Shown here piece after piece: positions 59,329-63,877 of a stretch of DNA of 64,000 nucleotides. Origin of the DNA: an uncultured Eubacterium sp. (GTDB lineage: Bacteria; Bacillota; Clostridia; Lachnospirales; Lachnospiraceae). The notes beneath the pieces were generated by a model that was not told the DNA's origin, did not search any database, and saw nothing but the letters and a program-made list of their open reading frames with translations. The position numbers and the translations under genes are program-made. Position 1 is the stretch's first letter; the number at the start of each line of letters is the position of its first letter. Location: NCBI GenBank assembly GCA_945939115.1, contig CAMEVC010000008.1, forward strand, positions 1 to 64,000, given 5' to 3'.

Positions 59329-60042
59329 ATGATGTACAGTATTGCGATATGTGATGATGACAATTTAATAATTGAACAGATTGCAGATTGTTTACATAAA
59401 GCCTTTAATCAGCATAATGCCGAGGTAATTATTGATTATTATAATTCAGGTGATAAACTGCTTTTAAGTATTGATAATACTAAATATGATATCATTCTTC
59501 TGGATATTAATATGGAACCTATGGACGGATTTGGTGTTGCAGGGCTAATTGCAGTGAAAGACAAGAATGCTAAGATAGTTTTTGTTACATCCCATGAGGA
59601 AGTAGTATATGACAGCTTTGATTACAGACCATTTTACTTCATAAGGAAATCATTATATAGCAGTTATGTAGAGCGTATGGTTAATAAATTTTTTAAAATT
59701 ATTAGTCATGAGACTGATGTTCTGGTGGAGAATCATAACAGCATTATTAAAGTTAACTCATCGGATATTGAATATGCTGAGAGCGAGGACCACTATATTA
59801 CTATACATACCCATGATGGTGACTTTGTCTTACGAAAGAAACTCTCCGACTTTGAGCAGGAGATGAGTGGCTTCAATATGGCGAGAGCACATAAGAAATA
59901 TGTAATTAATTATCAATATGTCAGAAAGGTTGACTATGTTTCTGGTGAGGTAATAATGAAAGATGGTAAAAAGCTTAAGCTTGGACGCAGTTATAAGGAT
60001 ACATTCAAGAAAGGACTTGTACAGTATCACCGTACATTGTAG
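59329..60042 (+). CDS. LytTR-family response regulator (AgrA-like)
   Basis: REC (AICDDDN, LLDINMEPMDGFGVA); LytTR C-terminus (DIEYAESEDHYITIHT, FNMARAHKKYVINYQYVRKV). Confidence 0.93.
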   Translation: MMYSIAICDDDNLIIEQIADCLHKAFNQHNAEVIIDYYNSGDKLLLSIDNTKYDIILLDINMEPMDGFGVAGLIAVKDKNAKIVFVTSHEEVVYDSFDYRPFYFIRKSLYSSYVERMVNKFFKIISHETDVLVENHNSIIKVNSSDIEYAESEDHYITIHTHDGDFVLRKKLSDFEQEMSGFNMARAHKKYVINYQYVRKVDYVSGEVIMKDGKKLKLGRSYKDTFKKGLVQYHRTL

Positions 60043-60047
60043 AAAAA

Positions 60048-61163
60048 ATGAATCCATATTATATGATGATAGGAATAGGATATATATTATTGGCTGTTAT
60101 TGCTGTTATATTCTATAAGAAAATATCATTAATACTAAAGAAAAGAATAGGTGCAATGGCATATCCTGTATCTGTGCTGATAACAGTAGTAATTCCTGGC
60201 ATTATGTATGCGATTGTGCGATTAAGAACAATAAGGATATCCGCGATAAGTGCAAATGTATTATTATCTATTGTGGTATATATTATATTACTTGTAATCA
60301 CAGACGCCTTTTCATCTATAAGAAAAGGTAGTTTTTCAAGGTCTGACAAAATATATATTTTATTGTATATTTTTTTCTCGACGATACTTATAATAACCAA
60401 TATAGCATTATTTAGAACTTTGGGAAAACAATATTCCAGGGTTATTTTCATAATATGTATTCTTCAGTTTTTTTTATTGTATTTTTTCTATACAATCTCA
60501 AAGAGACTGTATGAGGAAAATTATAACGAAAAAGAAGCTGACAGACTGAGATATAAGGTTAATTCCAGTGAAGAATATCTCGAAAATGTTATGTTAATGG
60601 ACAGGCAGATAAAGGTAATAAAACATGATATGAAGAGACAGCTTCAAATACTTACTAACCTTATAACTTTGGAAAAATATGACGAAGCAGCCGTGTTTCT
60701 AAGACAGTATGGAATGAGTCTTGAGAAAATACAGGATTATATACATACGGAAAATGCATTTGTTAATACTTTAATTAATAACAAAATAGAATATGCCAGA
60801 AATGAGAATATTGTTATTACATCAAGTATTCATAAGAAGATAAAGGAAATTGATAATTATGATTTATGTACTATTCTTGGTAATATTATAGATAATGCTA
60901 TTGAAGCAGAACTTCGTGAAGAACAGGATAAAAGGGAGATAGAAATATCTTCTTTCTGGGATGACGGTGATTGTGTATTTCGCGTTGGTAATTACATATC
61001 ACAATCAGTACTTGAAGAAAACAAAGAACTTAAGACAACTAAGACAGACAAGAAAAATCATGGCATTGGAACACAGATTATAAAGAGCCTTACGAAGAAG
61101 AATCAATGTAGTTATGATTATTACGAAGAAGGTAGTATGTTCTATTGTGAGATAAGATGGTAA
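60048..61163 (+). CDS. GHKL-domain sensor histidine kinase (AgrC-like)
   Basis: Multi-TM N-terminus; VIKHDMKRQLQILTNLI; LCTILGNIIDNAIEAEL; KNHGIGTQIIKSL. Confidence 0.92.
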   Translation: MNPYYMMIGIGYILLAVIAVIFYKKISLILKKRIGAMAYPVSVLITVVIPGIMYAIVRLRTIRISAISANVLLSIVVYIILLVITDAFSSIRKGSFSRSDKIYILLYIFFSTILIITNIALFRTLGKQYSRVIFIICILQFFLLYFFYTISKRLYEENYNEKEADRLRYKVNSSEEYLENVMLMDRQIKVIKHDMKRQLQILTNLITLEKYDEAAVFLRQYGMSLEKIQDYIHTENAFVNTLINNKIEYARNENIVITSSIHKKIKEIDNYDLCTILGNIIDNAIEAELREEQDKREIEISSFWDDGDCVFRVGNYISQSVLEENKELKTTKTDKKNHGIGTQIIKSLTKKNQCSYDYYEEGSMFYCEIRW

Positions 61164-61182
61164 TAATTCAAATATTTTATAG

Positions 61183-61223
61183 GCAGCTATTATGCATTAA
61201 AAGTGCATAATAGCTGCTTTTTT
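61183..61223 (+). terminator. Terminator after the LytTR two-component operon
   Basis: GCAGCTATTATGCA-N7-TGCATAATAGCTGC + T6. Confidence 0.85.
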
Positions 61224-61246
61224 GCAACTATACTAAAAAAATATGT

Positions 61247-61278
61247 CGTTCACGACACCACAGATACCGTTCACGACA
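61247..61278 (+). promoter_or_regulatory. Direct-repeat site CGTTCACGACA x2, 21-bp period: candidate LytTR operator
   Basis: Perfect 11-bp repeats at 61247-61257 and 61268-61278. Confidence 0.65.
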
Positions 61279-61284
61279 TTGGTG

Positions 61285-61313
61285 TTGAAATGGTGGGTTA
61301 TATGATTTATGCT
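61285..61313 (+). promoter_or_regulatory. Predicted promoter (TTGAAA-N17-TATGCT) downstream of the direct repeats
   Basis: 17-bp spacing, weak hexamers, consistent with an activated promoter. Confidence 0.5.
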
Positions 61314-62228: not shown

Positions 62229-63005
62229 ATGAGATTAAATAGACTGAAAATTGTTTCCAGCTTATTCTTAATTACTGCGTTGTGCGGATGCACAACGCAG
62301 TCTGTGAATAATGCTAAAGAAATAGAAGAAAGTAATACATATATATATAAGTATGAATATGAAACAGGCTCAGATGGACAGGTAGAGACACAGTATCATG
62401 AAGAAAAACCTTCCTTTGATGACTTTGGGACAGTAAAAGCAGAGACAGTGGAAACATTAAAGAATAAGAATGGAAACTTAAAGTTTGTAAGAATGAATGA
62501 AGTGTATAACTGGGGCGGAATGGAATGTTCAGTTACAGAAGCACATATATCAACATATGTAGATTACGCTTATGAAATATTGGATGATGATGTGGTTGAA
62601 TATGTGCTTAAACAACTTAAAAAACCATTCCCTTCTGGCAGAGTTGAGAAAGAAAAAGGAAAGATAATGTGGGTAAAGGTTCATATAAAAAATCCCGGAT
62701 TAAAGGATCAGGATTTAAATATGAATTCCAGTAATGTGACAGAAAAAACAGAAGGGGTAATTAGACCGGGGGGAGGTGCCTTGAGTTTAATAGATCAGGA
62801 ACTGTGGTTAAAGGGAGAGGCGCCACATAGAGGTACAGTAAGAATAAAAGCAAACTGTGAGCAGGATTTATGGTATGTATTTAATTTTAGTTCATATAAT
62901 ACTGATTATAAATACTACATGTTAGGTTCATTTGGATATATATTTGACCCAAGTGATTATTCAGGAATTTTAATTGAATTAAATGACGTGAAGGATGAAG
63001 GATAA
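62229..63005 (+). CDS. Uncharacterised lipoprotein, tandem copy B
   Basis: Same protein as copy A apart from FDYGSYN to FNFSSYN. Confidence 0.75.
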   Translation: MRLNRLKIVSSLFLITALCGCTTQSVNNAKEIEESNTYIYKYEYETGSDGQVETQYHEEKPSFDDFGTVKAETVETLKNKNGNLKFVRMNEVYNWGGMECSVTEAHISTYVDYAYEILDDDVVEYVLKQLKKPFPSGRVEKEKGKIMWVKVHIKNPGLKDQDLNMNSSNVTEKTEGVIRPGGGALSLIDQELWLKGEAPHRGTVRIKANCEQDLWYVFNFSSYNTDYKYYMLGSFGYIFDPSDYSGILIELNDVKDEG

Positions 63006-63031: not shown

Positions 63032-63877
63032 ATGCATGATTTAAATATATTGTTAAAGCTTGAATTTAAAAGGGCATTAAAAAGCAGATTGTTATATATT
63101 AGTCTGGCAATAGGAATAGCAATAGCAACAGGCTCGTTTATTAACAAGACTGTGCCACATATGGATGTTCTCAATGGATTTACAGGAAATGTTGCCTCTT
63201 ATCCGTTTTCTGTGTATAACTCATGGATGGGAAATTTTATGGGATATGAACCGTTTGCAACGGCGTATATTTATATATGTATGTTATATTCGGCATTACC
63301 GTATTGTGGATTATTTTCAATTGATAATAAGAATCAGTACATATTGCAGTATTACAGCAGGGTATCAAAGAATAAGGTACATGCTGCGAAATTTATTACA
63401 ACATTTGTTGTTGGGGGATTGTTAGTGTTTATACCAATATTCATTAATCTTGTTGCAACGATGATGTTTATTCCGGCATTATCTCCGGTAGAGAATGGCT
63501 TATTTATTGGAACAGGAAAATCTATTATGTCTAATCTGTTTTGTGACCATACTATGATATATGTATTTATATACTTATTGCAGTTTTTTATATATGGAGG
63601 GGCTTTTTCTGTAGTTTCATTAGCCGTTTCATTTACATTTAACAATGTTTTCTTAGTCGTTATATCACCATTTGTTGCTTATTATGGAGTTGGTGTTATA
63701 TCGTCACTATGCAAGAATTATCTTGGGTTAACATCTTTTAATCCAATGGTATATTTAAGCCCGTCATATCTGTTACCTAATGTAGGGTTAGTAGGTTTTA
63801 TCTTAGAACCTATAATAATTATAATTATATGTATGTTGGTTTTCTTTAGAAAGGGTGCAAATAATGAAGCGTTGTAA
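63032..63877 (+). CDS. ABC-2-type permease-like membrane protein
   Basis: LKLEFKRALKSRLLYISLAIGI N-terminus and six or so TM segments. Confidence 0.7.
   Translation: MHDLNILLKLEFKRALKSRLLYISLAIGIAIATGSFINKTVPHMDVLNGFTGNVASYPFSVYNSWMGNFMGYEPFATAYIYICMLYSALPYCGLFSIDNKNQYILQYYSRVSKNKVHAAKFITTFVVGGLLVFIPIFINLVATMMFIPALSPVENGLFIGTGKSIMSNLFCDHTMIYVFIYLLQFFIYGGAFSVVSLAVSFTFNNVFLVVISPFVAYYGVGVISSLCKNYLGLTSFNPMVYLSPSYLLPNVGLVGFILEPIIIIIICMLVFFRKGANNEAL

Follow-up and report, generated by a model that had tools for sequence, protein, structure and literature searches.

Repeat pair and predicted promoter

Two exact copies of the 11-mer CGTTCACGACA with a start-to-start distance of 21 bp, lying between a regulator/kinase gene pair and a lipoprotein/ABC-transporter operon, most probably serve the neighboring LytTR response regulator as its pair of half-sites, from which it would activate that operon. 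What was computed here is the site with its geometry and conservation, its gene context and a family-wide signal at 20/21 bp, for a 64,000-nucleotide stretch of DNA from an uncultured Eubacterium sp., referred to as the window, and for related loci. The following features of the window are concerned:

59329–60042, + strand: REC-LytTR response regulator, 237 aa (Pfam Response_reg, 4.6e-13; LytTR, PF04397, 4.1e-21), presumed binder of the repeats
60048–61163, + strand: GHKL-type sensor histidine kinase, 371 aa (Pfam HATPase_c_5 (GHKL), 1.4e-18), presumed partner of the regulator
61181–61223, + strand: intrinsic-terminator-like hairpin with a U run (18-bp stem, -25.2 kcal/mol, z -5.9), closing the regulator/kinase unit
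61244–61257, no strand: dyad TGTCGT-TC-ACGACA, read from the sequence and overlapping repeat 1
61247–61257, + strand: repeat 1, CGTTCACGACA; 9-bp LytTR register 61245–61253, GTCGTTCAC
61268–61278, + strand: repeat 2, CGTTCACGACA; 9-bp LytTR register 61266–61274, ACCGTTCAC, 10 bp 5' of the -35 box
61285–61290, + strand: -35 box TTGAAA, identical across four aligned loci
61308–61313, + strand: -10 box TATGCT, spacer 17 bp; hexamer and spacer identical in locus L027
61370–62146, + strand: lipoprotein-like gene, 258 aa, first in the operon (ORF; LCGC motif; no Pfam match)
62229–63005, + strand: second lipoprotein-like gene, at the protein level a 99% identical copy of the first
63032–63877, + strand: membrane (permease-like) protein; the operon runs on past the window

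The initial annotation of this region had described two perfect 11-bp direct repeats 21 bp apart, a TTGAAA-N17-TATGCT promoter after them and the dyad over the first repeat, all of which were found exactly as described. Its distance of 7 bp from the repeats to the -35 box had to be adjusted: the gap is exactly 6 bp (61279–61284), the -35 box starting at the seventh base. The repeats indeed adjoin this box, which matches the consensus at five of six positions (TATGCT at four of six) and is therefore not especially weak. With the LytTR register fixed by stepping 10 bp 5' from the -35 box, the whole arrangement reads GTCGTTCAC-12 bp-ACCGTTCAC-10 bp-TTGAAA-17 bp-TATGCT. A whole-genome scan of the assembly (2,457,956 bp), proposed together with the annotation, detected two copies of the 11-mer only, starting at 61247 and 61268, i.e., a single paired site, which adjoins a LytTR gene.

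Conservation in relatives and the overlapping dyad

A MAG (locus L026, genome G014), Eubacterium sp. AF22-9 (locus L027, genome G008) and genome G001 have relatives of the regulator with 50–51% identity and an unchanged gene order around them. Phylogenetic footprinting, likewise proposed with the annotation, showed that each of these three syntenic loci keeps the repeat pair and the -35 box 5' of its orthologous operon, with repeat offsets of 21, 21 and 20 bp (12, 12 and 11 bp between the 9-bp registers; 12 bp in the window) and with GTTGAAA directly after the repeats, while the flanks of the aligned loci have diverged. The 10-bp distance from the repeats to TTGAAA is common to the window and loci L026, L027, L037, L074, L141 and L127. 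L039, a locus that is further removed (its regulator is 34% identical) but has the same operon, carries the repeats ATACCGCTT/ATACCGTTT at an offset of 21 bp immediately 3' of the kinase gene; their word differs from that of the window, and a clear -35 box was not found at the expected position of the L039 alignment. The regulator frame of Eubacterium sp. AF22-9 (L027:6001–6709; 195 aa, one stop) is broken within the LytTR domain, although the repeats are intact; either the gene was lost recently or the sequence contains an error. This break and the lack of a clear -35 box in L039 count against the assignment of the site.

The same alignments bear on the dyad TGTCGT-TC-ACGACA, which might serve another dimeric helix-turn-helix factor as an operator 5' of the -35 box, with the second repeat as an accessory copy. 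A perfect dyad is in fact available at repeat 1 in the window and at repeat 2 in L026, L027 and L037, but it is complete in a single copy per locus, which copy it is varies between the loci, and it is the direct repeat with its distance to the -35 box that is kept between them, so that such a factor appears improbable. Related sites beside LytTR genes of the genus are without a dyad (L074, ATTCACGACA; L141, ATTCACG), and the core CGTTCACG itself contains CGT/ACG, making partial symmetry inherent to the word. Being complete just once per locus and absent from the related sites, the dyad overlapping repeat 1 is probably incidental. As the primary element it was ruled out because its left arm is not kept in all copies and loci.

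Regulator and kinase

The regulator/kinase unit is preceded by a symporter gene, and its terminal hairpin separates it from the promoter at 61285–61313; comparable palindromes ahead of a U run are present in relatives L026 and L027. When the PDB was queried with the regulator sequence by itself, the matches listed were receiver domains only; a query with the alignment also recovered the LytTR regulator ComE (4cbv).

The genome of the window encodes ten LytTR matches and LytTR words within the genus can look alike, so another of these regulators might be thought to bind the site, either instead of or besides the adjacent one. The distribution of the genes makes this very unlikely: the regulator gene adjoins the site in all four loci, and of 22 genomes of the genus, the four that have the site are those whose regulators are most closely related (at least 49% identity, the window itself being 100%).

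A separate type of array, consisting of three ACCG(A/T)(A/T)T(A/G)CGACA-like copies with 21-bp phasing, was observed in G001 (L069, L070, L071 and L175) and G008 (L065, L078 and L173), while none is present in the genome of the window. These arrays are dispersed in the genome without an adjoining LytTR gene, some of them preceding DUF5688 or PD-(D/E)XK/Rpn-like nuclease genes; in L071 the last copy ends 10 bp 5' of TTTACA in the 9-bp register. They possibly represent a LytTR regulon acting in trans. It is conceivable, albeit doubtful, that the LytTR regulators of the genus use a half-site extended past the classical 9 bp by a conserved CGACA/CAACA tail and, in some species, additionally control a dispersed trans regulon of three 21-bp-phased half-sites that includes the PD-(D/E)XK (Rpn-like) nuclease and DUF5688 genes.

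Simulations and the genus-wide survey of LytTR loci

Exact repeats of at least 11 bp at offsets of 12–40 bp numbered 3 in the window vs a Markov mean of 1.1, and an exact repeat of this length at an offset of 20–22 bp with at least six G+C was absent from all 40 Markov-simulated windows. Although AT-rich DNA commonly contains short repeats in two copies and the promoter scan taken alone was not above chance, a chance repeat without function or a piece of an RNA element is hardly credible here, the former being ruled out by the simulation and footprinting (a pair kept in four loci despite diverged flanks, its 11-mer without further copies elsewhere in the genome) and the latter by the Rfam search, which gave only sub-threshold matches to unrelated families and nothing over the cut-off.

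The survey covered 71 loci that carry LytTR response-regulator genes and, with few exceptions, belong to the genus. Their intergenic regions within 2.5 kb were scanned for direct repeats of 10 bp with at most one mismatch at offsets of 12–60 bp; the window's own site was left out and its three orthologous sites were taken in. Two peaks emerged at offsets 20 and 21, with 18 and 16 regions, respectively (15 and 15 nonredundant); the other offsets averaged 1.0 regions and never exceeded 4, and the Markov expectation was 2.0 for offsets 20 and 21 jointly. Many of these repeats lie 5' of the regulator itself or in the gap that follows a kinase gene and precedes the next operon, and their words vary by locus (CACAACA, CTTGTG, TCAAACT etc.). 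The earlier proposal that the window's repeats are of the LytTR type is thus supported, for a candidate site, by the genome scan, the footprinting and the genus-wide 20/21-bp peak.

Loci L072, L075 and L079 contain another LytTR/kinase pair, with GTTCACAACA-type repeats at 21 bp on either side, 5' of the regulator and 3' of the kinase, the latter preceding a FlxA-like gene in L079; this pair is likely an autoregulated version. Furthermore, ATTCACGACA and GTTCATGACA/GTTTATGACA pairs were found 5' of AgrB-family genes in L074 (5408–5780) and L073, so that the genus also uses related words for Agr-like peptide systems.

Presumed target operon and proposed mechanism

Beyond the window the operon also encodes an ABC ATPase (ABC_tran match, 1.2e-28) besides additional membrane proteins. 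The best NCBIfam model for the ATPase is a lantibiotic-protection ATPase with a score of 175 bits, below the cut-off of 309.75, and the likeness is therefore a resemblance only. Relatives of the lipoprotein-like gene occupy the same position in L036, L037 and L038. A search for the lipoprotein in 396 genomes of the family matched the genome of the window alone, although synteny reveals divergent relatives; the genomes bearing them are probably missing from this sample. The two lipoprotein-like genes form a tandem pair, while G014 and G001 carry one copy here, which suggests a recent duplication or gene conversion.

Binding, phosphorylation, activation as the sign of regulation and the inducing signal are inferred. 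The GHKL kinase would phosphorylate the adjacent LytTR response regulator, whose dimer would then occupy the pair of half-sites; these would lie two helical turns apart on one face of the DNA, immediately 5' of the -35 box. The bound regulator may recruit or stabilize RNA polymerase at TTGAAA-17-TATGCT, by which the separately transcribed lipoprotein/ABC-transporter operon would be activated. Since the ATPase is lantibiotic-protection-like, an antimicrobial or signaling peptide can be guessed, by analogy, as the inducing signal.

A precise candidate operator and a single target operon are hereby assigned to an uncharacterized two-component system from a gut genus of the Lachnospiraceae. On a wider scale, LytTR operators can be read from genomes through their 20/21-bp phasing beside the regulator gene despite regulator-specific words, which makes the decoding from regulator to site testable for the LytTR family.

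Comparison with known systems

In LytTR-family promoters the 9-bp repeats are usually separated by 12 bp, less often by 11 or 13 bp, and have a strong bias to a position 10 bp ahead of the -35 box, while their sequence is poorly conserved (PMC6193735). The window has a linked LytTR regulator, a gap within the range of 11–13 bp, about 10 bp to the -35 box and conservation 5' of orthologous operons, and its promoter thereby very probably belongs to the LytTR-regulated ones. The closest geometry is that of HdrR/BrsR and other LRS promoters, with 9-bp repeats, a 12-bp gap and 10 bp to the -35 box; LRS systems, too, may have ABC transporter genes linked to them (PMC6193735). Repeat 2 (ACCGTTCAC) is similar to the ACC-type repeats tabulated there (Table 3), repeat 1 (GTCGTTCAC) less so, and the word is GTTCACGACA in the window vs the ACCACTTAC type in LRS (PMC6193735). 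In contrast to the LRS regulators, which pair with a membrane inhibitor and control their own operon (PMC6193735), the regulator of the window has a receiver domain, pairs with a GHKL kinase and is followed by repeats located 3' of its gene, ahead of a downstream operon; it is thus outside the LRS group.

The AgrA-dependent P2/P3 promoters of Staphylococcus aureus share with the window a LytTR-domain response regulator, direct repeats just 5' of the promoter and a kinase partner, but the word differs and their spacers are suboptimal (18 and 20 nt), that of the window being 17 (PMC4227749). Neither an AgrB-family protein nor agrD was seen among the genes scanned beside the system, where small peptide genes were searched non-exhaustively, and the locus is not placed among Agr quorum-sensing systems, which have an AgrB protease and an AgrD peptide gene at the locus. 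The AlgR sites of Pseudomonas aeruginosa (CCGTTCGTC) have the core CCGTTC in common with repeat 2 (ACCGTTCAC), but they are scattered, often distant from the promoter, and continue after the core with GTC vs ACGACA in the window (PMC4064291).

The initial annotation had suggested a new LytTR recognition sequence. The word would be specific to the regulator of the window, as tends to hold for LytTR regulators one by one, and is new in this sense only. In the literature searched, CGTTCACGACA appeared in five papers, none with LytTR regulation as its titled subject, and none joining Lachnospira eligens with LytTR was retrieved, so the word is new to the literature searched. LytTR repeats diverge in sequence yet keep their spacing, and the site of the window is therefore very probably one more, well-conserved but ordinary instance of a familiar kind of switch that uses a recognition word of its own.
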